Assembly (NCBI GenBank): GCA_021805565.1
Contig: JAJZFA010000011.1
Coordinates: forward strand, 62,001 to 126,000
From: Pseudomonadota bacterium
Lineage (GTDB): Bacteria > Pseudomonadota > Alphaproteobacteria > Acetobacterales > Acetobacteraceae
Direction: 5' to 3'
DNA: 64,000 nucleotides
Below, one piece after another: positions 34,255 through 62,029 of this stretch; position 1 is the stretch's first letter, and each line of letters opens with the position of its first letter. The translations under genes were made by a program, and so were the position numbers. Below the pieces are notes generated by a model. That model did not search any database. It saw nothing but the letters and a program-made list of their open reading frames with translations, and was not told where the DNA came from.

Positions 34255-35742
34255 ATGCGGTTGGGCCCTGAACAGATAGTACCGCGTCCGCCGCACGATC
34301 GCCGGCGCTCGTTTCGTTCGCTGCCCGCACGCGCGTTTCTGGCGATGCTGGCGGTATTGCCTGGCTGCTCCACGGTCAATTCGGTCTCGAACGTCGTCCT
34401 TGGTCCGTCCGGACCGCCTTTGGGGCAGCCTGGGCATGTTCGGGGATTCCTCGGCGGGGTCGTGGCGGACGAACCGCGCGCGGCACTTGCCGGCCGCGAT
34501 GTCCTGTCGGCCGGTGGGTCCGCCGCCGATGCCGCGGTGGCCGTCGCGCTCGCCCTTGCGGTCACCTACCCCTCCCGCGCCGGCCTCGGGGGCGGCGGTG
34601 CCTGCCTTGCCTACGCGCCCGATACCGGCGGTCCGGCCAAGGGTATGCCGCAGGCGGCGATATTCAACCCGCTCGCACCCGCCGCGAGCGGGGCCAACGC
34701 CGATCGCCCCGCGGCCATCCCCATGCTCGCCCGCGGTCTGTTTCTGTTGCACGCCCATTATGGCGTATTGCCGTTCGAGGCCCTGGCCGGTCCGGCGGAA
34801 CGCATGGCGGCGTCCGGGGTTCCCGTTTCGCGCGCGCTGGCGAAGGATCTGGCCCTGGTGGCCGGCCCGCTGCTGGCCGATCCTGGCGCGCGGTCGGTCT
34901 TTTCCCGCGATGGGGTGCCGCTTACCGAAGGCCAGACGCTGCGTCAGCCAGACCTCGCCGGCACACTCGGCCAGATTCGCGGCGCCGGGGTGGGCGATCT
35001 GTATCAGGGCGCGATGGCGCACCGGATCGCCCTGGAATCCGCCCAGATTGGCGGTCCGCTGACGTTCGACGATTTGCGCGGCGCTCTGCCAAAACTGATG
35101 ACGCCGCTGATCCAGGCGTACCACAACAACAAAATCGCGTTCCTGCCGCCGCCGGCCGACGGCGGACTGGCCGCCCAGGCCGCTTTCGGCACGCTGTCCA
35201 ACAGTACTGGGGCTATTGCCGCTGCCAATGCGCGTGCCCTGGCCGTTGTCGCCCGCTATCGTGCCGGCGGCGTGACTCCGGATCAGGTCCTGGCCGCCGC
35301 CAACCTGACCGCCGCCCCGGCGGTGCTGTTTCCCGCCTCCACCGGCTTCGTGACCCTGGACCGGGACGGCAACGCGGTGGCGTGCGTGCTGACGCTGAAT
35401 AATCTGTTCGGGACCGGACGCATTCTGCCCGGCCTGGGCTTTCTGGCGGCGGCGTCTCCGGCCGCGGTGCCGGCGCCGTTGCTGGCGGCCGGCCTGGTCT
35501 GGAACGACCGGAAAGACGCCTTTCTGGCGGCCGTTGCCGGATCGGGCCAGTCCGCTGCCCCGCTGGCGGTGGCCCTGGCGCTGACCGACACACTGCAAAC
35601 CGGCCGCCCCGTCAGCAGCCGGATCCCCGATCCAGGGCGCGCCAACATCGTCGCCTGCGCGAAATATCTACCGGGCGACACCGCATCCTGCGCGTGGACG
35701 AACGATCCGCGCGAATCCGGCCTGGCTATTGGGTCCAATTGA
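34255..35742 (+). CDS. Divergent gamma-glutamyltransferase-like lipoprotein
   Basis: A 495-residue Ntn-hydrolase of the GGT superfamily. Fold motifs are present: DVLSAGGSAADAAVAVALALAV and RAGLGGGGACLAY in the large-subunit half, and DRDGNAVACVLTLNNLFGTG in the small-subunit half. The N-terminus carries a signal with lipobox LPGC, predicting an outer- or inner-membrane lipoprotein. Key residues differ: the position of the nucleophile/self-cleavage Thr (18 residues before TLN) is Ser (AST), the F-R-E-x-A-P Arg that binds the glutamyl carboxylate is missing (FNPLAP), and the NNxMDDF loop is absent. Activity as a true GGT is doubtful. I prefer the ATG at 34255 (AGGA 8 bases away) over 34246. It may be co-transcribed with the aminotransferase that follows. 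Confidence 0.75.
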   Translation: MRLGPEQIVPRPPHDRRRSFRSLPARAFLAMLAVLPGCSTVNSVSNVVLGPSGPPLGQPGHVRGFLGGVVADEPRAALAGRDVLSAGGSAADAAVAVALALAVTYPSRAGLGGGGACLAYAPDTGGPAKGMPQAAIFNPLAPAASGANADRPAAIPMLARGLFLLHAHYGVLPFEALAGPAERMAASGVPVSRALAKDLALVAGPLLADPGARSVFSRDGVPLTEGQTLRQPDLAGTLGQIRGAGVGDLYQGAMAHRIALESAQIGGPLTFDDLRGALPKLMTPLIQAYHNNKIAFLPPPADGGLAAQAAFGTLSNSTGAIAAANARALAVVARYRAGGVTPDQVLAAANLTAAPAVLFPASTGFVTLDRDGNAVACVLTLNNLFGTGRILPGLGFLAAASPAAVPAPLLAAGLVWNDRKDAFLAAVAGSGQSAAPLAVALALTDTLQTGRPVSSRIPDPGRANIVACAKYLPGDTASCAWTNDPRESGLAIGSN

Positions 35743-35770
35743 GCCTCGGGATGCGGATCGGTATGACAGG

Positions 35771-36931
35771 ATGGCGCTGAAAACCGGAAAAGGCGCCGCC
35801 GCCCCGCCATTCCTGGTGATGGACGTTATCGCCGCCGCCAATGCCCGGCAGGCCGCGTTGCCCACCGGGTCGCCGCACGTTATTCGGATGGAGGTCGGCC
35901 AGCCCGGAACCGGTGCCCCGGCCGGTGCGGTCGCGGCCGCGCAAGCCGCCCTCCGTTCTGGCCATCCGCTGGGCTATACCGAAGCGTTCGGCCTGCGGTC
36001 CCTGCGCGACCAGATCGCCGCCCATGCCAAGGATTGGTATGGCCTAACGATACCGATCGGGCGGATTGCCGTGACCGTTGGCGCGTCCGGCGCCTTTCCC
36101 CTGGCTTTTCTCGCCGCATTCGATCCCGGCGATCGCATCGCCATGGCCGCGCCGTTCTATCCGCCTTACGTGAATATCCTCACCGCCCTGGGCATGACTC
36201 CGGTCATCCTGGAGGCCACGTTGGAAACCCGGTTCCAGCCCACGATCGCCATGCTGGAAAAGCTGGACCCGCGTCCCGACGGATTGATCGTCGCCAGCCC
36301 CTGCAACCCCGCCGGTACCATGCTGCACACCGATGAACTGGCCGCCATCGCCATTTGGTGCCATCGCAACGGCGTTCGCCTGATCAGCGACGAAATCTAC
36401 CACGGGCTGAATTACGACAGCCCGGTCGCGTCCGCCGCCCAGTTCAGCGACAGCGCCATCGTGGTGAACAGCTTTTCTAAGTATTTCTCCATGACCGGCT
36501 GGCGCATCGGGTGGATGGTGTTGCCGGACGACCTTGCCCGTCCGGTCGAATGCCTCGCGCAAAACCTGTTCATCAGCGCGCCCTATATCGCTCAGGTAGC
36601 CGCCGAAGCCGCCTTCGGTTGCCACGATGAATTGCGGGCAAACGTCGCCAGTTACCGCCGGTCCCGCGATTACCTGCTTGCCGCGCTACCCGCCGCCGGA
36701 TTCACCCGGCTGTCGCCGGCCGAGGGCGCGTTCTATCTGTTCGCCGACATCGCGGACCGGTCCAACGACAGCGTCGCCTTCTGCGCCCGCATGCTGCGAG
36801 AGGCCGGCGTCGCCGTCAGCCCCGGCGTCGATTTCGACCGCACACGGGGCCATCGCTTCGTCCGGTTCAGCTATTGCGGCCCCGAGGCGGACATGCGCGA
36901 AGTGGCCGCCCGGCTGCAACGGTGGCGATAG
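35771..36931 (+). CDS. PLP-dependent class I/II aminotransferase
   Basis: A 386-residue fold-type I aminotransferase. Motifs are GYTEAFGLRSLRDQIAAH, the cofactor-binding Asn/Pro region VASPCNPAGTMLH, SDEIYHGLNYD (Asp and Tyr to the pyridine) and the Schiff-base Lys in NSFSKYFSMTGWRIGWM, then the substrate Arg in RFVRFSYCG. ATG 35771 is chosen where homology begins; a TTG 42 bases earlier overlaps the previous gene. It follows the GGT-like gene by 28 bp, so the pair may process amino-acid or peptide substrates. Specificity is unknown. Confidence 0.9.
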   Translation: MALKTGKGAAAPPFLVMDVIAAANARQAALPTGSPHVIRMEVGQPGTGAPAGAVAAAQAALRSGHPLGYTEAFGLRSLRDQIAAHAKDWYGLTIPIGRIAVTVGASGAFPLAFLAAFDPGDRIAMAAPFYPPYVNILTALGMTPVILEATLETRFQPTIAMLEKLDPRPDGLIVASPCNPAGTMLHTDELAAIAIWCHRNGVRLISDEIYHGLNYDSPVASAAQFSDSAIVVNSFSKYFSMTGWRIGWMVLPDDLARPVECLAQNLFISAPYIAQVAAEAAFGCHDELRANVASYRRSRDYLLAALPAAGFTRLSPAEGAFYLFADIADRSNDSVAFCARMLREAGVAVSPGVDFDRTRGHRFVRFSYCGPEADMREVAARLQRWR

Positions 36932-37443: not shown

Positions 37444-38157
37444 TCACCCCCGGACCTGAACCGCGACGCGCACAAAAGTCGAAACGATTTTACCGCCGGC
37501 GCGCAGCGTACCGCGCAAGGACCCAGCCACCTTGGACGTTCCCCCCGCTCGGCAACGATACGGCACCGGAACTTCCAGTATTCGCAGCCCGGCGCGGGCC
37601 GCCTTCATTTGCATCTCGATGTTCCAGCCATACGTCATTTCCCGCATGTCCAAAGCCAGCAGCGCATCCCGCCGGATCGCCCGGTAGGCGCACATGTCGC
37701 TGTAGCGGACCCCGTACAGCGCGCCGATGCCCAACCCGGCCGCGCGCCCCGCCAAAACCTGATGCCACCGCATCGCCCCCGGATCGCGCTGCCCCCTGGT
37801 ACGCGAGGCCAGCACAAAGTCGTGCGTCCCCGCCAAAACCGGGCCGGCCACGCGCGTTAGCAAATCCCCGCGATCCGCCCCGTCCCCGTCCAGAAACACG
37901 ATCGCCGGACCCCGGGCCGCCATTGCCCCCGCCCGGCACGCGCGCCCGTATCCCCGGCCCGCATCCAGCACGATCGCGCCCGCCGCTCGCGCGATGTCCT
38001 GTGTGCCGTCTGTACTGCCGCCGTCCGCAACGATAATTTCCGCCACATGCAAGCCTGGAAGTTCGCGGATAACGTCCCCGATGGCATCGGCTTCGTTGAA
38101 CGTGGGAATAACCACGCTCACCCGGTCGCCGTCCGCCGGTCCGGTCACAAACTCCAT
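37444..38157 (-). CDS. Glycosyltransferase family 2 (polyprenyl-phosphate sugar synthase-like)
   Basis: A 237-residue GT-A inverting glycosyltransferase. It opens with RVSVVIPTFNEADAIGDVIREL (about 12-33), has the VADGGSTDGTQDIA nucleotide loop and the FLDGDGADRGDLL metal motif (DxD, about 92-104). It ends with a GYEIxMxMKAxR-like block (GWNIEMQMKAARAGLRILEVPVPYRCR). Dolichyl/undecaprenyl-phosphate mannose or glucose synthases and TIGR04283-type enzymes look like this. No membrane anchor is seen. It overlaps the 3' end of the radical SAM gene by 13 bp and is the last gene of a four-gene operon. Confidence 0.87.
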   Translation of the reverse strand: MEFVTGPADGDRVSVVIPTFNEADAIGDVIRELPGLHVAEIIVADGGSTDGTQDIARAAGAIVLDAGRGYGRACRAGAMAARGPAIVFLDGDGADRGDLLTRVAGPVLAGTHDFVLASRTRGQRDPGAMRWHQVLAGRAAGLGIGALYGVRYSDMCAYRAIRRDALLALDMREMTYGWNIEMQMKAARAGLRILEVPVPYRCRAGGTSKVAGSLRGTLRAGGKIVSTFVRVAVQVRG

Positions 38158-39197
38158 CGCAACCCGCAATTCTGGCATGGCGCGGGCGGGGTATCGCCCA
38201 GCAGCGAACCGCGGAAACCGCGATAGGCCGGGCTGTTCCAAATTTCCCGCAGCGTGTCCTGCGTGGCATCCCCCAGCGTATAGTTTTCGTAGCCGCGCGC
38301 CGAGAACGGAGCGATGCAGCATGGCAGCGCCCGCCCGTGCGCGGTGAAATACATCAAGGACCAAGGGCGCCGGCAGGTTGCCCAGGGCGTGTCGCCGGCC
38401 GCCCGTTTCAGGCTCAATCCCGGTTCCGTCGCGCCCGATGCATCCAGTGTCACCCCCAGTTCCGCACCGATAAACCGAGCGGCTTCGATTGCGGCCTGCT
38501 CGGTGTTATCGGTCTGCTCGAATAATGAAGATGAAGACTGGGCCTTGCCGAAACCGTTGCTGTCGAAGACCAAACGCTGTAAATGTACGTCGCGGACGCC
38601 CATCGATGCCGCCAGCCGAACAAATGCCGGCAGTTGGCCGACTGTTTCTTTCAGTCCCGTCAGCCACAGCGAAACCCGCGGATGCGTAACCCCCATGGCC
38701 TGTTGATAAGCCGTGAATTTTCCCACATCGCGAACAATGCGGCCGAAAAAATCCTTGCCTCTTATCGCCGCGTAACTCGCCCGGTCCGCGGCATCCAGCG
38801 ACACCCGCAATTCGTCCAGTCCGGTATCGATCAGTTCCTGGAATTTCTTCGGATTCAGCAACGTGCCATTGGTGTTGAACAAAACATAAGTGCCGCGATC
38901 TTTCAAATACCGGATCATTCGCGGCAGGTTCCGCACCAGCATCGGTTCGCCCACGCCGTGCAGCACCACGCGCGCCACGTCCGGAACCTGATCGACAATC
39001 CGGGTGAACAGCGCCCAGCTCATGTCCGCCGGAGGCTCCAGATCCTCGAACGTCCGCGGACACGTCTCGCACAACAAATTGCAGCGGTTGGTGACTTCCA
39101 GATACAGGCAAACCGGTGGCGCTTGTGCGACCGCGTTCCGTTCCGCCGCGACCGACTCGAAGTAACGCCCGGGATCCAGCAAGGTCAACGAGGACAT
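38145..39197 (-). CDS. Radical SAM/SPASM domain enzyme
   Basis: A 350-residue radical SAM enzyme. The [4Fe-4S]-SAM motif CxxxCxxC is Cys39, Cys43, Cys46 (TNRCNLLCETCPRT), followed by GVGEPML (the GGE-like motif). The C-terminal SPASM part has further Cys (ATCRRPW, LPCCIAPF, CQNCG) that could bind one or two auxiliary clusters. SPASM enzymes modify peptides, sugars or other small substrates, or act as dehydrogenases. It is embedded in an operon of three glycosyl/nucleotidyl-transferase-type genes, overlapping both neighbours by 13 bp. No precursor-peptide gene is visible, which favours a sugar, lipid or metabolite target (inference). Confidence 0.88.
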   Translation of the reverse strand: MSSLTLLDPGRYFESVAAERNAVAQAPPVCLYLEVTNRCNLLCETCPRTFEDLEPPADMSWALFTRIVDQVPDVARVVLHGVGEPMLVRNLPRMIRYLKDRGTYVLFNTNGTLLNPKKFQELIDTGLDELRVSLDAADRASYAAIRGKDFFGRIVRDVGKFTAYQQAMGVTHPRVSLWLTGLKETVGQLPAFVRLAASMGVRDVHLQRLVFDSNGFGKAQSSSSLFEQTDNTEQAAIEAARFIGAELGVTLDASGATEPGLSLKRAAGDTPWATCRRPWSLMYFTAHGRALPCCIAPFSARGYENYTLGDATQDTLREIWNSPAYRGFRGSLLGDTPPAPCQNCGLRWSL

Positions 39198-40507
39198 CGG
39201 ATCGTTCCTTCAATCGGTTTAAGGCGGGGATAGAGAAAAGCCGCAATCGCCAGCAGCGCCGCCGGTCCGTAAATCGCGGAAGACCAGGCCAATGAGTCGC
39301 GATACCCTTCCAAATACATCAGAACAGGCACCGTCGCCAGCCACAGCACCGCCGGGTTGGGCGACACCGTGGCCGGGACCGCCAGCCAGGCGAAATACCA
39401 TGGATACGGCGGCCCGAGACCGGCCGTCAGCACCGCCATCATGGTCCCCGCCGCTCCGCACAGCGCCACCGCACCGTCCGGCCGCCGGACAAACGCGTAC
39501 TGGGCGCCTAAACCGGCAAGCACAATCGCCAACCCCGCCAAATACACCGGCCCGGCCGCGGCCGGCAGCGCCACAACCCGGCGGACTAAGTTCAGCAGCC
39601 ACAAACCCGACCCGTCGTTTAGCCCTTCCTCCGCCCCATAGCCGCCTAAAAACCCGAATACCCGCCATCCGACTCCGCTATACAGCGCATAAAATGCCGC
39701 CACCGTCGCCGTCGCGGTCAGGGCCAACCGCCAGCCGCCGCCGCGCCGCCACAGCACCGGGGCCACGACCGCCGGCAGCAGCTTGGTCAACACCGCAAGC
39801 CCCAAAGCGGCCCCCGCCCAGCCATCGCGCCGCCGCACCCGTAACAGTAAAGCCAAGGAAACGAACCCGGCTACCGCCGCATCGATGTGCCCATTGCCGG
39901 CAAACGCCCAAACCGGCAGTGGATTCCAGGCATATATCAGCACCCGTTCCGCCGGCAGCGAAGCCGCCGCCAGCAGCCGCATCAGGCAAAACACCGCCAG
40001 TATCTCGAACCCCACCATCGCCAGCTTTATCCCGGTTGGGCCAGACCACACCCAGGCCACGATCGCAAAAATAACCTGTGCCCCCGGCGGATAAATCGTC
40101 GGTGCATAATCCGCTCGGTTTATATGCGGAAAGATCGCGGTATCTCGCAAAAAGGCCAGCGCTGGATCGTCGGGAATGTAACGATATGGACTTATTCCGG
40201 CCACCTGTACCCGTCCGTCCCAGACATAGCGATTGATATCGCTGGACAGAAACGCCGGCGAGACAATCAACGGCACGCGCAACGCGATCGCGACTAAAAG
40301 AACAATCCAAATCCCCCGCCGCGGAGCCCCCCAGTAAAGCACGCCGGACACCGCCGCCAAATACACCGCCGCACTGACGCACAGAATAACCACCAGTTCC
40401 ACCGCCGCCTGAGGCGTTCCGACAATTCCCGAACCTGGCGTATGCAGCGACAGGCCCGCCAGGGTCAGGCCCAGCAAAATCGTCCCAGGCAGAGCCAGGC
40501 GAATCAT
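39185..40507 (-). CDS. GT-C type integral membrane glycosyltransferase (GT87/DUF2029-like)
   Basis: A 440-residue polytopic protein. The first periplasmic loop carries SSDINRYVWDGRVQVAGISPYRYIPDDPAL (about 74-103), the acidic catalytic loop of GT-C mannosyl-type transferases that use polyprenyl-phosphate sugars. Hydrophobic helices fill the rest, with TIYPPGAQ and GLGPPYPWYFAWLAVP loops also typical. Family members transfer mannose or another hexose to lipid or glycan outside the membrane. It overlaps the DUF2064 gene by 4 nt and the radical SAM gene by 13 nt. The GT2 in the same operon could make its lipid-linked donor. Confidence 0.87.
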   Translation of the reverse strand: MIRLALPGTILLGLTLAGLSLHTPGSGIVGTPQAAVELVVILCVSAAVYLAAVSGVLYWGAPRRGIWIVLLVAIALRVPLIVSPAFLSSDINRYVWDGRVQVAGISPYRYIPDDPALAFLRDTAIFPHINRADYAPTIYPPGAQVIFAIVAWVWSGPTGIKLAMVGFEILAVFCLMRLLAAASLPAERVLIYAWNPLPVWAFAGNGHIDAAVAGFVSLALLLRVRRRDGWAGAALGLAVLTKLLPAVVAPVLWRRGGGWRLALTATATVAAFYALYSGVGWRVFGFLGGYGAEEGLNDGSGLWLLNLVRRVVALPAAAGPVYLAGLAIVLAGLGAQYAFVRRPDGAVALCGAAGTMMAVLTAGLGPPYPWYFAWLAVPATVSPNPAVLWLATVPVLMYLEGYRDSLAWSSAIYGPAALLAIAAFLYPRLKPIEGTIRCPR

Positions 40508-41268
40508 TCCGCCGCGAGACCGCGCCGTGCCGCCCGCAAGTCCATGCGGTCCAGTGCTTGGGCCGTGAATCGCGCGGGGTAGGGACGCAGGCCCGGTCCG
40601 GCCTGTTGTTCCGTCCGGGTTTCATCGCGCAACCGGATCAACGCCGCCGGGTCGTCCACGTCGTACCACACCGGCAGTTCGACAACGTCCAGCCCCAACG
40701 CCGCCGCGCGCGCGCGCGTTGTCTGTGCCACCGCATCCGTGCTCCAGGGAATATCGGCGAACAAATGCGCGTGCGCCGCTTTCAGGCCGAGCAAATAATA
40801 CCCGCCATCCTCGGCCGGCCCCAGCACCACGCGATCCCCTGGCGCCGCAAGCACCGTCGCGGTTCGCACCAAAAGCTCGGTTGGCAACGTCGGACTATCG
40901 GCGTTCAGCGCCACAGCCGAACGATGCCCGAGTGCCAGCATCGTGCGGAATGCGTGCAGCAGGCTGCGGCCCAGCGCCACGACACCCGCCGGCACCGGCG
41001 GCGAACCGTCGGCCAGCAGCAACCCCGTTCCCGCCGCCAGATGTCCGCCGAACAGCGCCTCGGTCCCTGCCGGAGCGTAGGCGATATACCCCGATACCGG
41101 AACCTTCCGGCCCGCCAGTGCGATGTTGTCGGTGATATCCCGCAAAAATGCCCCGCTCAGCGCTGCGGCTTGCTCCGGCAGTAACGGCGGACAGAGCCGG
41201 GTTTTGGAGAACCCCGGCCGCGGTGCCTTGGCCATCACCGCGATCGCACACTCCGTTACAGCTGGCAT
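40504..41268 (-). CDS. DUF2064/TIGR04282 family glycosyltransferase-like protein
   Basis: A 254-residue GT-A/nucleotidyltransferase-fold protein. It opens AIAVMAKAPRPGFSKTRLCPPL (about 8-29), the family's signature, and continues with VALNADSPTLPTELL (DxDxP-type metal motif) and LGPAEDGGYYLLGL. TIGR04282 proteins were named from arsenosugar gene clusters, where they sit beside a GT2 (TIGR04283) and a radical SAM protein; the biochemical role is not settled. First gene of the four-gene operon; 469 bp without a gene lies upstream. No ArsM or ars genes are seen. Confidence 0.87.
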   Translation of the reverse strand: MPAVTECAIAVMAKAPRPGFSKTRLCPPLLPEQAAALSGAFLRDITDNIALAGRKVPVSGYIAYAPAGTEALFGGHLAAGTGLLLADGSPPVPAGVVALGRSLLHAFRTMLALGHRSAVALNADSPTLPTELLVRTATVLAAPGDRVVLGPAEDGGYYLLGLKAAHAHLFADIPWSTDAVAQTTRARAAALGLDVVELPVWYDVDDPAALIRLRDETRTEQQAGPGLRPYPARFTAQALDRMDLRAARRGLAAE

Positions 41269-46293: not shown

Positions 46294-47121
46294 TCACGCT
46301 TCGCCGATCAGCCGAAGCCGCAAAAACCGCGAAATCGTATCGATCGCCGCCACGGAAATCAAAATCAGCACGATACTATACGCCACCTGATCCCAGGCAT
46401 TGATCTGAATGCGTTCCGATAGCCGCAGCCCGATTCCGCCAGCCCCTACCAGGCCCAGAATCGTCGCCTCCCGCGTGTTGGCCTCGATTGTATAGAGCGT
46501 CTGGCCGATCATCGTCGGCAGCACCTGCGGCAACACGCCAAACCGCACGCGCGCGACGAAGCCCCCGCCGGTGGCGCCGATGCCGTCCACCTGCCCGCGA
46601 TCGATCGTTTCAACCGCCTCGGCAAACAGCTTGGCCAGCACGCCGGTTTCGACCACCGCGATCGCCATGATACCCGCGACCGGCCCAAGCCCCATTGCCC
46701 GGACGAACACCAGTGCCCAAATCAGTTGATCCAGGCCGCGCAGTCCGTCGAACAGCCGGCGGGTTACGAAATGAAAAATCCGGCCGGGGATCAGATTTCG
46801 TGCCCCGAGAAAGCCCAGCGGCGCCGCGAATACGACGGCCAGGACGGACCCAAGATACGCCATGGCAATGGTTTCCAGCATGGACCGCCACAGTTCCGCG
46901 TGATCCCAACCAGCAAATCCGGTCCAATCCAGCATCAAACGCAAAATCGTCCACGCCTTCGGCAGACCGCCGAACACGCGGCTAAAATCGAACAGCCACA
47001 TCAGATAAAACAGGTAGGCGATAACACCGGCCATTAGCGCCCGGCGCGGCCAGCCCTGGCCACGAAACACCTCTGGAAAGCGATCCCGTTCGGCGGCGAT
47101 ATCCAGCTCGGTGGCAGTCAC
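46294..47121 (-). CDS. phnE: Phosphonate/phosphite ABC transporter permease PhnE (second copy)
   Basis: A 275-residue inner-membrane permease with the PhnE features. The binding-protein-dependent permease loop is EAVETIDRGQVDGIGATGGGFVARVRFGVLPQVLPTMI (about 185-221), followed by EANTREATILGLVGAGGIGLRL. It starts with GTG at 47121, which overlaps the TGA of the upstream permease gene (GTGA). It forms a heterodimer or homodimer channel with the first PhnE and takes energy from PhnC. The last transporter gene before the dienelactone hydrolase gene. Confidence 0.9.
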   Translation of the reverse strand: MTATELDIAAERDRFPEVFRGQGWPRRALMAGVIAYLFYLMWLFDFSRVFGGLPKAWTILRLMLDWTGFAGWDHAELWRSMLETIAMAYLGSVLAVVFAAPLGFLGARNLIPGRIFHFVTRRLFDGLRGLDQLIWALVFVRAMGLGPVAGIMAIAVVETGVLAKLFAEAVETIDRGQVDGIGATGGGFVARVRFGVLPQVLPTMIGQTLYTIEANTREATILGLVGAGGIGLRLSERIQINAWDQVAYSIVLILISVAAIDTISRFLRLRLIGEA

Positions 47122-48059
47122 GACATCGAACCGATGAAGCGGTGGCGAACCTGTTCCGACAACAGGTCGATCATCACCACGACCAACAGGATCAGGATAC
47201 AAATGGCGCTGACTTCCTCATAAATGTTGAAGCCAATGACCCGTTTCAATTCTTGTCCGATACCGCCTGCTCCCACGAAGCCAATAATCGTGGAAGACCG
47301 GACATTGATCTCGAACCGCAACAGCGCGTAGCTGAGAAAGCCCGGCAGCACCTGCGGCACCGCACCCAGCCTGATCTGCGCCAACCAGGACCCACCAGTG
47401 GACCGGATGCCGTCCACCGGCCGTAAATCGGCATTTTCGTTAAGTTCGCAGAATAGTTTGCCCAAAGATCCAGCGGTGTGGACCGCCATCGCCAGTACTC
47501 CCGCCAGCGGCCCGATACCAAATGGCCAGACCAGGATCAGCGCAAGCACGATCAACGGGATGGAGCGCATCGTCTCCAGCAGCCGGCGGATAGCGAAAAC
47601 GATACCATAACGGTTGTTAAAGCGGCTTGTCGCGGGAAACGACAGGACAAACGCGGCGGTGAAGCCAAGCACCGTGGCAAGGATGGCCATTTGGATGGTC
47701 TGCCACAACAACGACAGATAGGTGCCGATCCGGTAGAACCAGTAAGCGACGGATTGCGGTTCCCTGACGCCGCCGGTCAGGTGCCCCAGCGCCAGAACGG
47801 GCATGGATACGGGGCTGAATTTCGGCTGGATGGAGAACAGTTTGCCAAAATACTCGCCGATGCGCGGAAGGCCGGCGGCGATCGTCGCCGGCAGGAACCC
47901 GGTCCATGCGGCGGCGCAGACAAACAGCAGCAGGGCGACGGCGACGGTGAGCAGCGTCCGGTTCAGCCGAGCGCGCCGGACCGCACCGAATTGCTTTACA
48001 AACAGCCGGTAAGCTGGATCTGAGGTGGGATCGGGCCGGTCCACGGACGGGCGGTTCAC
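47118..48059 (-). CDS. phnE: Phosphonate/phosphite ABC transporter permease PhnE (first copy)
   Basis: A 313-residue permease, longer at the N-terminus than its partner. It has helix LLTVAVALLLFVCAAAW, and the permease loop is ELNENADLRPVDGIRSTGGSWLAQIRLGAVPQVLPGFLSYAL followed by EINVRSSTIIGFVGAGGIGQEL. I start with the GTG at 48059, which overlaps the phnD TGA by GTGA. The reading frame is open further upstream, but inside phnD. Two different PhnE proteins are usual for this transporter type. Confidence 0.9.
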   Translation of the reverse strand: MNRPSVDRPDPTSDPAYRLFVKQFGAVRRARLNRTLLTVAVALLLFVCAAAWTGFLPATIAAGLPRIGEYFGKLFSIQPKFSPVSMPVLALGHLTGGVREPQSVAYWFYRIGTYLSLLWQTIQMAILATVLGFTAAFVLSFPATSRFNNRYGIVFAIRRLLETMRSIPLIVLALILVWPFGIGPLAGVLAMAVHTAGSLGKLFCELNENADLRPVDGIRSTGGSWLAQIRLGAVPQVLPGFLSYALLRFEINVRSSTIIGFVGAGGIGQELKRVIGFNIYEEVSAICILILLVVVMIDLLSEQVRHRFIGSMS

Positions 48060-48985
48060 CGTCCGCCCTGGCGTTCGGCTTCGCGCAATTGGATGATGTC
48101 CTGGTAAAGGCTGAGCGTCGCCCGGACGTAGCCAACGCCCGACCCTTGCTCGATCTGGTCGTAGATATCCTTGTGCGATATCGGCAGATCCAGCATGAAC
48201 GCGGCGAAGGCGGTCTTCAGGCCGGCGGGCAGCGCGGATCGCAAGCCCCACGGCCCGTTGGGGATTTTCCCCGACCGCCAGATGATGGTGAGGTCGGACA
48301 TTTTCAGCATGCCGCGATCCACCATGCCGCGCAGGGCGCCCCGGCTGTATCCCTCGGCGATATCGCCCTGGCCGGATGTCCAGGTGACGCAGGCATCGTA
48401 TTGCCGGTTCAGCACGGCGATGATTCCTTGCTCATGCCCGCCCGCGAAACCGGTCCGGGAAAAATACGCGCCGTCCGCCAGGTCTATCCCCGCCGCCTTC
48501 AGCGATGCGCTGGGAATTAGATAACCGGACGCCGAGTTCGGATCGGCCCAGGCCAGCGAATGGCCCTTCATGTCCGCCAGCGATGCGATGCCCGAATCAG
48601 ACCGGACCACCATCGCGGCAATGTAAAAGACCGACCCGTCTTTTTCCTGTGGAACCACGATCGGTTCGACGCATTCGCAGTCCAGCCAGGCCCCCGCGAA
48701 CGCCGACGGGCTGAACTCCGCGAGGTCCAACTGACCGGCGGCCATCGCCTGCATGACCCCGGCGTAGTCGGCGGCGGGATATAATTTCACCGGGATGCCC
48801 AGGCTGTTTTGCAACAGTGTTTGAAACCCGTCATAGCGCGCCAGACGGCTGGACGTGTTTTCCCCGCCCAGCAGGCCGATACGCAGTTCCTTGACCTGCT
48901 GTTTCCAGTCTTGCGCGGACGCCGCCAGCGGCGCGAACAGCATCGTTACGATCATTGCAAGCGAAAATATGATACGGCGTGGCAT
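48056..48985 (-). CDS. phnD: Phosphonate/phosphite-type periplasmic binding protein PhnD
   Basis: A 309-residue exported protein with a signal peptide (RRIIFSLAMIVTMLFAPLAASAQ) and the PhnD fold. Motifs are LRIGLLGGENTSSRLARYDGFQTLLQ, PVKLYPAADYAGVMQAMAAGQLDLAEFSPSAFAGA, the phosphate-loop type SLADMKGHSLAWADPNSASGYLIPS, and TWTSGQGDIAEGYSRGAL. GGGAG precedes the ATG. It lies 96 bp after phnC on the same strand. The ligand may be phosphonate, phosphite or a related oxyanion; no C-P lyase or ptxD gene is here to choose between them. Confidence 0.9.
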   Translation of the reverse strand: MPRRIIFSLAMIVTMLFAPLAASAQDWKQQVKELRIGLLGGENTSSRLARYDGFQTLLQNSLGIPVKLYPAADYAGVMQAMAAGQLDLAEFSPSAFAGAWLDCECVEPIVVPQEKDGSVFYIAAMVVRSDSGIASLADMKGHSLAWADPNSASGYLIPSASLKAAGIDLADGAYFSRTGFAGGHEQGIIAVLNRQYDACVTWTSGQGDIAEGYSRGALRGMVDRGMLKMSDLTIIWRSGKIPNGPWGLRSALPAGLKTAFAAFMLDLPISHKDIYDQIEQGSGVGYVRATLSLYQDIIQLREAERQGGR

Positions 48986-49081
48986 CGACAGACTCCCGTA
49001 AGGGCAGCATTGGACAAACGTGCGTCGGCACACCGATAAAGCTGCCCGTTCTAACAACGGCTTAAGCTATCCCCTGACACC

Positions 49082-49894
49082 CTATTGTGCCAACGCGGGG
49101 CGATAATTCGTTACGGCTGGCGGATCGTCCGGGGCTTCGCCGGCCGGCTGGCCGTAAATCTTGTGCAATGCCCGGTCATCCAGCGCGGCGGGCGATCCGT
49201 CGAACACGATATGGCCACCCGACATGCCGATAATCCTGCGGCAATACGACCGGGCGATATCCAATGTGTGCAGATTAACCAGCACGGTCATACCGTCGCG
49301 CCGGTTGATATCGGCCAGTGCGTCCATTACCAGCTTGGCATTCAGCGGATCGAGCGAGGCGACCGGTTCGTCGGCCAGCACGATCCGTGGCTGCTGCATC
49401 AAGGCGCGGGCTATGGCCACCCGCTGTTGCTGTCCTCCCGACAGCGTATCCGCCCGTTTCATGGCGAACCCCGCCAGACCCAGGCGGTCCAGCGCCCGGA
49501 TCGCCAGCGCCCGTTCCGCTGGCGTAAACCATGCCAGCAACACCCGGGCGACGGGGATGGCGAACAGCCGTCCGCACATGACGTTTGTCAGCACGTCCAG
49601 CCGGTTAACCAGGTTGAACTGCTGGAATATCATCGCCGTGCGCGCCCGCCATTGGCGTAGCGCCTGGCCGCGCAGTGCCGTCACGTCGTCGCCGTTATAG
49701 AGAATGCGCCCCTCCGACGGATCGGTCAGCCGTCCGATCATCCGCAACAGGGTCGATTTTCCGGCGCCCGACCGGCCGATGATGCCAATCATTTCCCCAT
49801 CCGCGATCGACAGGCTGACATGGTCCACCGCGCACGTGTCCCCGAAACGGCGGGTCAGATCGAGGAGTTGCAGCAACGGGTCGTCCTGTTCCAT
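49082..49894 (-). CDS. phnC: Phosphonate/phosphite ABC transporter ATP-binding protein PhnC
   Basis: A 270-residue ABC ATPase with Walker [10 protein letters not shown] (about 46-54), signature [15 protein letters not shown], Walker [14 protein letters not shown] and the switch [10 protein letters not shown] (H-loop). It also has the PhnC-type [23 protein letters not shown] stretch. First gene of the phnC-phnD-phnE-phnE operon. Start uncertain: ATG 49894 (MEQDDP) is used, and ATG 49927 would add 11 residues. Neither has a good ribosome site. It is divergent from minCDE. Confidence 0.9.
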
Positions 49895-50073
49895 TTGTAC
49901 GCCGGGTGCCGGCGGCGAAATTTCCATCGCGATGCAGTATGGCCCGAGTCGCGGAAGCGGGCGAGAAAATCCGCGCCATGGCGCCGGCGTCGCCCAGAAT
50001 ACTGTCCGGCGACGCACCACGTGTTGGGCCGTTAAACCGCTTGGCTACTACCCCTAGCGGTCGGTACGGAAGG

Positions 50074-61596: not shown

Positions 61597-62029
61597 GCGA
61601 GAATCCTGTTGTTTTTCGGCTTCGAAAGGCTGGGCCGGTGCGGCGAAGGACTTTGTCTGGCCGCACAGACGACAGCATGAACATGCGGGCGAATGGCTTA
61701 CCGTTCTCTAGTCGGAGCAATTAAATTCGTGTTATTTTCGCAACACTAAAATATTAAATACATTTTAGAATTGACTATCGCGACGCGTTTTCGGGTAGCA
61801 ATTTCGGCTGGTATCGCCAGCGCCAGAATTCGCCGGGCGGCGGCTTTTTGCCAGCGAACGAAACGGGATTGTCCGGATTGCCGGCTGGCTTGGCGCTCAC
61901 GCCGCGATTAGCTTACGCTGCGGTGCGGCAGGATCATTGCCATTTGTCCATTCAGCGTGCAAAAGAGACTCTTGCGCGAAATCGCGCTGCCCTGATGGCA
62001 GGTCTGTTACGCCAAGGAAAGTTGTGGCA
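61597..62029. other. 433-bp divergent gap between degP-like gene and gltB
   Basis: The middle is very AT-rich compared with the rest. It contains two inverted repeats: GTGTT (61729-61733) with AACAC (61742-61746), and CTAAAAT (61746-61752) with ATTTTAG (61762-61768). These could be operator sites for a regulator controlling either gene. A -35-like TTGACT lies at 61771, but its -10 is weak. No coding frame is supported. Confidence 0.5.

Follow-up and report, generated by a model that had tools for sequence, protein, structure and literature searches.

Arsenosugar biosynthesis clusters, going by the names of their NCBIfam families, consist of ArsM, ArsS (TIGR04167), TIGR04282 and TIGR04283. In hopanoid side-chain synthesis, which involves HpnH, HpnG, HpnO, HpnI and HpnJ, the published description places a radical S-adenosylmethionine (SAM) enzyme, a phosphorylase, an aminotransferase and a glycosyltransferase in one pathway (PMC12583986). 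Polyprenyl-phosphate sugar pathways pair a DPM1/AglJ-type GT2 with a GT-C enzyme, and a further set, Rv1679-Rv1680-Rv1681, is defined by NCBIfam names. Here, we analysed a 64,000-nucleotide stretch of an Acetobacteraceae genome, considered as a whole as the window (positions 62,001 to 126,000 of contig JAJZFA010000011.1; contig C52 of genome G000, which comprises 4.49 Mb in 64 contigs and is 98.5% complete). It carries a cassette of four overlapping genes encoding a DUF2064 protein, a GT87 membrane glycosyltransferase, a radical SAM/SPASM protein and a GT2 glycosyltransferase. The four genes form a conserved unit and their association is not due to chance. We propose, with somewhat less than even confidence, that the cassette may form the core of a modular pathway in which a single unusual sugar would be built on a lipid carrier and attached to an acceptor at the outer side of the inner membrane.

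To assess conservation, public genomes were scanned with the radical SAM protein, and the best 80 of 185 relatives were kept as loci, the records of which are mostly labelled Acetobacteraceae, Rhodospirillales, Rhodopila, Acidisphaera or Methylobacterium. Sixteen loci with cut-off flanking DNA were dropped, leaving 64 assessable; near duplicates such as L041 and L042 are present. DUF2064 was found in 59 of the 64, GT87 in 56 and GT2 in 59, and all four genes, whose co-occurrence around the radical SAM gene the original prediction had proposed to check, were in place in 51. The 13 incomplete loci lack GT2 (L008, L024 and L078), DUF2064 (L057 and L081) or only GT87 (L067, L071, L073, L074 and L075), retain GT2 alone (L054), or have none of the three in place (L053 and L059).

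Within the family, 299 genomes were sampled, 250 of them of high quality. At E<=1e-50, the radical SAM gene was called in 61 of the 299, in 40 of the 250, and in 4 of the 7 genomes of the window's genus. When the 40 high-quality positives were compared with 40 negatives (the 20 first shown and the next 20 by handle), GT87 was matched in 37/40 radical SAM-positive and 0/40 negative genomes (Fisher p = 2e-19). Some copies of the radical SAM gene in this family give a split match or contain a single internal stop (G523:C49:45689-46902, G457:C1:1926009-1926866 and G480:C24:183637-184680), through either recent loss or faulty assembly.

All four genes lie on the minus strand, in the order DUF2064/TIGR04282-like protein (40504..41268, 254 aa; PF09837, 73.2 bits for a cut-off of 25.8), GT87 (39185..40507, 440 aa; PF09594, 49.8 for 25), radical SAM/SPASM protein (38145..39197, 350 aa; PF04055, 53.7 for 29.5, and PF13186 SPASM, 52.8 for 21.5) and GT2 (37444..38157, 237 aa; PF00535, 80.1 for 23.3). 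The domains of all four proteins thus pass their Pfam cut-offs, and the GT-C membrane enzyme and the SPASM-type radical SAM enzyme named in the original prediction are both recovered, at the same position and with the same overlaps of 4 bp (DUF2064/GT87), 13 bp (GT87/radical SAM) and 13 bp (radical SAM/GT2). For GT2, the start was taken as the ATG at 38157; a longer frame from the TTG at 38364 would extend more than 200 bp into the radical SAM gene. The exact overlaps are variable: in two annotated Methylobacterium plasmids, the spacings are two overlaps of 4 bp each and then a gap of 3 or 4 bp. Gene overlap suggests translational coupling. It had been taken to imply one stoichiometric pathway, of which one functional unit is borne out by the 51 complete loci, whereas stoichiometry is not established by overlap.

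The four genes proved to be the core of the set but not, as had been assumed, all of it. We searched 4.5 kb on either strand upstream of DUF2064 in the 55 loci with this gene in place and more than 2.8 kb of upstream DNA. A gene for an MsrP-like molybdoenzyme (PF00174) was present in 42 and one for cytochrome b561 in 41; less frequent were a solute-binding-protein gene (23), a hypothetical protein that looks secreted from its N-terminus (17), a DoxD-like gene (12) and a PNP-family phosphorylase gene (9). An MsrP-like or PNP gene was found in 45, and four of the other ten loci (L032, L039, L047 and L073) have one at another position in the locus. The closest relative is L102, which is the same place as L003; here, overlaps of 4 and 1 bp link the genes for the solute-binding protein, cytochrome b and the molybdoenzyme, and this series ends 3 bp short of the DUF2064 frame. 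In L063, in L066 and in L094, a locus of genome G200, PNP and DUF2064 share 4 bp.

The same partners are enriched at the genome level. At E<=1e-40, a match to the MsrP-like enzyme (paralogs included) was found in 33/40 positives versus 14/40 negatives (p = 3e-5), and a PNP-family phosphorylase in 21/40 versus 3/40 (Fisher p = 2e-5); one protein family that mixes antisense frames with real phosphorylases was left out of the counts. Six of the seven radical SAM-positive genomes with no MsrP-like match have PNP. In Methylobacterium clusters, an aminotransferase gene comes after GT2; only long matches to it were used, the query having contained part of GT2. The aminotransferase of the window (35729-36931) was ruled out as the counterpart of the Methylobacterium one (27% identity over 296 residues).

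None of the upstream partner genes was found beside the window cassette in the 30 kb examined. Elsewhere in G000, contig C39 carries a PNP gene that begins 8 bp after a DoxX gene, if its start is the ATG at L101:9025, and whose product is 54% identical to the PNP of L066. About 4 kb from this pair, the stretch L101:25-4483 encodes Cas9 (TIGR01865, 565.7 bits), after which come frames resembling Cas1 and Cas2, identified by reading the sequence. Contig C47 holds a divergent cytochrome b/MsrP-like pair. This pair was considered as the missing partner of the cassette and set aside, since its MsrP-like copy falls outside the cassette-linked groups, on a long branch (0.46), which leaves its ortholog status unproven. 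In the window itself, a phosphonate-type ABC transporter lies about 5 kb from the cassette (46294-50020), with PhnC over its cut-off (319.3 for 266.1), PhnD slightly below (250.1 for 261.1) and two permease-like frames noted by reading the sequence.

Moreover, the set is present beyond the lineage to which, as the original prediction had considered, it might have been confined, namely in Methylobacterium, in G200 and G217, which belong to another family, and in Miltoncostaea. The radical SAM gene was present in three of 398 sampled Pseudomonadota genomes, G000 included; when 299 Pseudomonadota were sampled, GT87 was found in the same three and, as a 31% relative, in G007. G200 and G217 carry DoxD-like, GT2, radical SAM, GT87, DUF2064 and PNP genes. 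A Miltoncostaea plasmid (Actinomycetota) has a similar set, with a 46% identical radical SAM protein and GT87::GT2 and DUF2064::NUDIX fusions; there (L088:1-11002), the set is near selD, and genes for DM13, DoxX, AhpD-like and DUF2515 proteins and for relatives of Rv1679-Rv1681 are also seen. Two Methylobacterium copies are likewise on plasmids, and these plasmid copies indicate that the set can move. The Rv1679-Rv1680-Rv1681 set thus adjoins the cassette in Miltoncostaea and in G200/G217, where the Rv1681 relative passes its cut-off in G217 (498.4 for 380) and the other two relatives are below theirs, whereas no match to it was found at E<=1e-6 in the 80 loci.

We then considered each protein. 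The Pfam entry describes DUF2064 as uncharacterized. The window protein falls slightly short of TIGR04282 (130.9 bits for a cut-off of 134), which its G200 relative exceeds (156.6). Its AlphaFold model is of good confidence (predicted local distance difference test, pLDDT, 90.3). In a fold search of the PDB, this model was closest to 3cgx, another DUF2064 protein, and ranks 2-9 (E 8.6e-10 to 4.1e-8) comprised FbiD/Rv2983, the 3-phosphoglycerate guanylyltransferase 7p97 and MM2497, with mostly KdsB, IspD and GlmU lower down. A CofC-like nucleotidyltransferase fold is therefore predicted for DUF2064, and because the closest folds are of the CofC/FbiD type we prefer this reading to the NCBIfam name "glycosyltransferase". 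The Miltoncostaea relative passes the Pfam CofC cut-off (PF01983, 26.4 for 22).

GT2 matches AglJ (121.4 for 325), TIGR04283 (64.5 for 182) and dolichyl-phosphate hexose transferase (59.7 for 375), all below cut-off. Its sequence relatives in the PDB are GpgS and the dolichol-phosphate mannose synthase 5mlz, and hydropathy reveals no hydrophobic segment. Its nearest type by sequence would be that of the polyprenyl-phosphate-sugar synthases (AglJ/DPM). GT87 has about 8 hydrophobic segments by simple hydropathy, as expected of a multi-pass protein within the GT87 family. A soluble DPM-like GT2 with a multi-pass GT-C enzyme, the two being fused into one protein in Miltoncostaea, is the arrangement of polyprenyl-phosphate sugar pathways; unlike these, the cassette has the radical SAM/SPASM and DUF2064 proteins as near-constant members. 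The original model, in which GT2 makes a lipid-linked sugar that the GT-C enzyme transfers, is thus supported by the models nearest to GT2, albeit below cut-off, by the GT87 membrane enzyme and by the fusion. GT87 is replaceable by another large membrane protein: in the five assessable loci missing only GT87, and also in L059, a larger membrane protein stands in its stead. The copy in L074 has many hydrophobic segments and gave no NCBIfam match, and that in L071 matches no Pfam family.

The radical SAM protein carries the CxxxCxxC motif at C39, C43 and C46. In alignments of 14 and 36 sequences, the window protein included, eight cysteines are invariant in both, i.e., these three and the C-terminal Cys 275, 293, 294, 341 and 344. 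SPASM proteins with two auxiliary clusters (PqqE type) have seven SPASM cysteines; with only five invariant C-terminal cysteines in either alignment, the PqqE type was rejected, and these five make one auxiliary Fe-S cluster likely. The spacings C275-x17-C293 and C341-x2-C344 match those of the auxiliary cluster in the sugar-alcohol dehydrogenase BtrN. The top NCBIfam model, the tungsten-oxidoreductase radical SAM maturase TIGR04317, was rejected at 139.9 bits for a cut-off of 380. The closest solved sequences are PqqE (45.6 bits) and BtrN (43.8 bits).

On these grounds, the proposed pathway would run as follows. A PNP-family phosphorylase (in G000, that of contig C39 beside DoxX) would cleave a nucleoside to give a ribose-type sugar-1-phosphate, which DUF2064, with its predicted CofC-like fold, would turn into a nucleotide sugar. 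GT2 would then load the sugar onto polyprenyl phosphate, and GT87 would hand it to a lipid or other acceptor in the periplasm. At some point, the radical SAM enzyme would oxidise or rearrange the sugar. In most relatives, the operon also includes the cytochrome b561/MsrP-like pair, which may act on the product once exported. We count in support of this pathway the complete loci, the GT87 and PNP contrasts between positive and negative genomes, the overlaps of PNP with DUF2064, the DoxX-PNP pair of G000, the DUF2064 folds, the Miltoncostaea fusions, the membrane protein in all five GT87-less loci and the G007 stretch described below. By analogy, its logic resembles that of arsenosugar-lipid and hopanoid side-chain synthesis, without arsenic. 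A more specific version can be drawn from the sequences, although we regard it as rather doubtful. The cassette would be a non-arsenic counterpart of arsenosugar-lipid synthesis, in which DUF2064 activates a nucleoside-derived pentose modified by the radical SAM enzyme, polyprenyl phosphate serves to export it and GT87 links it to a membrane lipid, giving a new glycolipid class that the molybdoenzyme and cytochrome b561 then oxidise or reduce.

Several observations weigh against this pathway. PNP is not matched (E<=1e-40) in 19/40 radical SAM-positive genomes, occurs anywhere in the stretch in only 18/80 loci and was not seen in the Miltoncostaea stretch read, gaps which mean that PNP is dispensable or replaced; moreover, the PNP proteins pass PF01048 and none reaches an NCBIfam cut-off. 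The window DUF2064 protein scores poorly against the CofC sequence models (TIGR03552, 28.1 for 105; PF01983, no match at E<=0.001), and its fold matches include the mannosyltransferase PcManGT (rank 11), FKRP (rank 25) and COLGALT1 (rank 31), so that, the folds being related, it could still be a glycosyltransferase. PqqE, the closest solved sequence to the radical SAM protein, is a peptide-modifying enzyme; for the radical SAM protein itself, a poor structure model (pLDDT 68.8) matched both peptide and sugar enzymes in the fold search, which did not tell the two apart. Finally, positives and negatives in the genome comparisons were unmatched for genus or phylogeny, and the p-values ignore relatedness.

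The gaps in PNP also bear on a simpler account, a general decoration of the envelope in which lipopolysaccharide, some other lipid or a polysaccharide receives a common sugar through DUF2064, GT2 and GT87, the radical SAM enzyme alters that sugar, and PNP and the molybdoenzyme are unrelated. Such a decoration, for which we would give about one chance in four, is close to the original model and agrees with the family membership of GT2 and GT87, as well as with a window core that has no adjacent molybdoenzyme. It does not account for the enrichment of PNP and molybdoenzyme genes with the cassette, nor for their placement in series with it through overlaps of 1-4 bp or short gaps.

If the molybdoenzyme is instead the object of the cassette, GT2 and GT87 would glycosylate the MsrP-like enzyme or the adjoining hypothetical protein, and the radical SAM/SPASM enzyme would modify it. 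The frequency of the MsrP-like, cytochrome b561 and secreted-looking hypothetical proteins upstream of DUF2064 would fit, as would the top radical SAM models, TIGR04317 and TIGR04311, which are those of metalloenzyme maturases, albeit below cut-off. However, no such molybdoenzyme is present in the stretches read of the G200/G217 and Miltoncostaea clusters, 7/40 radical SAM-positive genomes have no match at E<=1e-40, and the nearest copy in G000 is divergent and on another contig. We therefore regard maturation of the molybdoenzyme as unlikely.

Given the parallel enzyme set of hopanoid side-chain synthesis (PMC12583986), the same chemistry could act on hopanoids, which these Alphaproteobacteria make, and the aminotransferase gene after GT2 in Methylobacterium would have a counterpart there. 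Nevertheless, the scanned cassette proteins miss the Hpn models: HpnH is not among the best 25 models of the radical SAM protein, HpnG gave no match to the PNP of either L066 (at E<=1e-5) or L093 (at E<=1e-8), and GT2 reaches only 19 bits against HpnB. With glycosyltransferases of the lipid-carrier type instead of HpnI, hopanoid decoration is a weak, quite improbable explanation.

As for arsenosugars, the cassette is similar in outline to the pathway in which ArsS adenosylates arsenic (PMC12159101). Both have a DUF2064/TIGR04282-like protein, a GT2 and a radical SAM enzyme, and a PNP-family phosphorylase co-occurs with the cassette; in contrast, the cassette has a SPASM-type radical SAM enzyme, GT87 in its core and no ArsM match in its genome. 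ArsM (NF008823) gave no match at E<=1e-30 in G000 and passed its cut-off in 8/40 positives versus 4/40 negatives (p = 0.35). ArsS TIGR04167 (cut-off 300 bits) was not among the best 25 of the 52 NCBIfam radical SAM matches of the cassette enzyme (25th, 36.8 bits), the rest of the genome not having been searched for it. Given the lack of an ArsM match and these model scores, TIGR04283 being missed by GT2 as well, a strict arsenosugar pathway was rejected; TIGR04282 is slightly under its cut-off. The original prediction had noted a likeness to arsenosugar clusters without ArsM; membership indeed fails, although the likeness is closer than was held, as a stretch of G007 indicates.

This stretch (L111, G007:C41:62000-81000) contains a DUF2064 protein (TIGR04282, 105.7 for 134), a GT2 of the same AglJ-like type (106 for 325) and the GT87 relative, which matches no Pfam model at E<=0.01. 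It also has an ArsM-like protein (184.1 for 263), an Rv1681-like radical SAM protein (121.5 for 380) and an MTA phosphorylase over its cut-off (280.6 for 274.85), which could have a housekeeping role; the stretch showed no relative of the SPASM-type enzyme of the cassette. An unnamed 297-aa protein, an FAD/ferredoxin-like protein and a cellulose-synthase-like GT2 are encoded in it as well, and L111 is possibly a new arsenolipid cluster. The occurrence of DUF2064, GT2 and GT87 beside an ArsM-like gene in this one distant genome suggests that the three are a reusable module. In L039 (15386-20904), the cassette, PNP and a DoxD-like gene lie beside an arsenic operon with ArsM (347.1 for 263), an ACR3-like protein (281 for 282.8), ArsJ (519.8 for 400) and, from sequence reading only, ArsR- and GAPDH-like frames. 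ArsR, ACR3 and ArsJ had no match in the other loci examined, and besides L039 and L111 only partial ArsM matches (30-37% over 110 residues) occur, in L078 and the G200/G217 loci. The near-threshold TIGR04282 score, the ArsM gene of L039 and the ArsM-like protein of G007 might point to genuine synthesis of arsenosugars or arsenosugar-lipids, for which another part of the genome would provide ArsM; this reading is very improbable given the contrary genome evidence and the ArsS and TIGR04283 results.

We found no description of this gene set in the open-licence literature, which is weak evidence of absence as subscription papers are mostly outside it. This literature yielded no paper naming DUF2064, alone or with radical SAM, none naming two of Rv1679, Rv1680 and Rv1681, and no title on this set under arsenosugar gene clusters; the same was true among the matches listed for Rv1681/MoeX, for arsenosugar with radical SAM or phosphorylase, and for GT87 with Acetobacteraceae or Rhodopila.

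The cassette connects the chemistry of radical SAM enzymes with a family of nucleoside phosphorylases, with glycosylation through a lipid carrier and with a periplasmic molybdoenzyme. It offers a lead, open to testing, towards a bacterial glycolipid or glycoconjugate that would be new, and towards what DUF2064 does.

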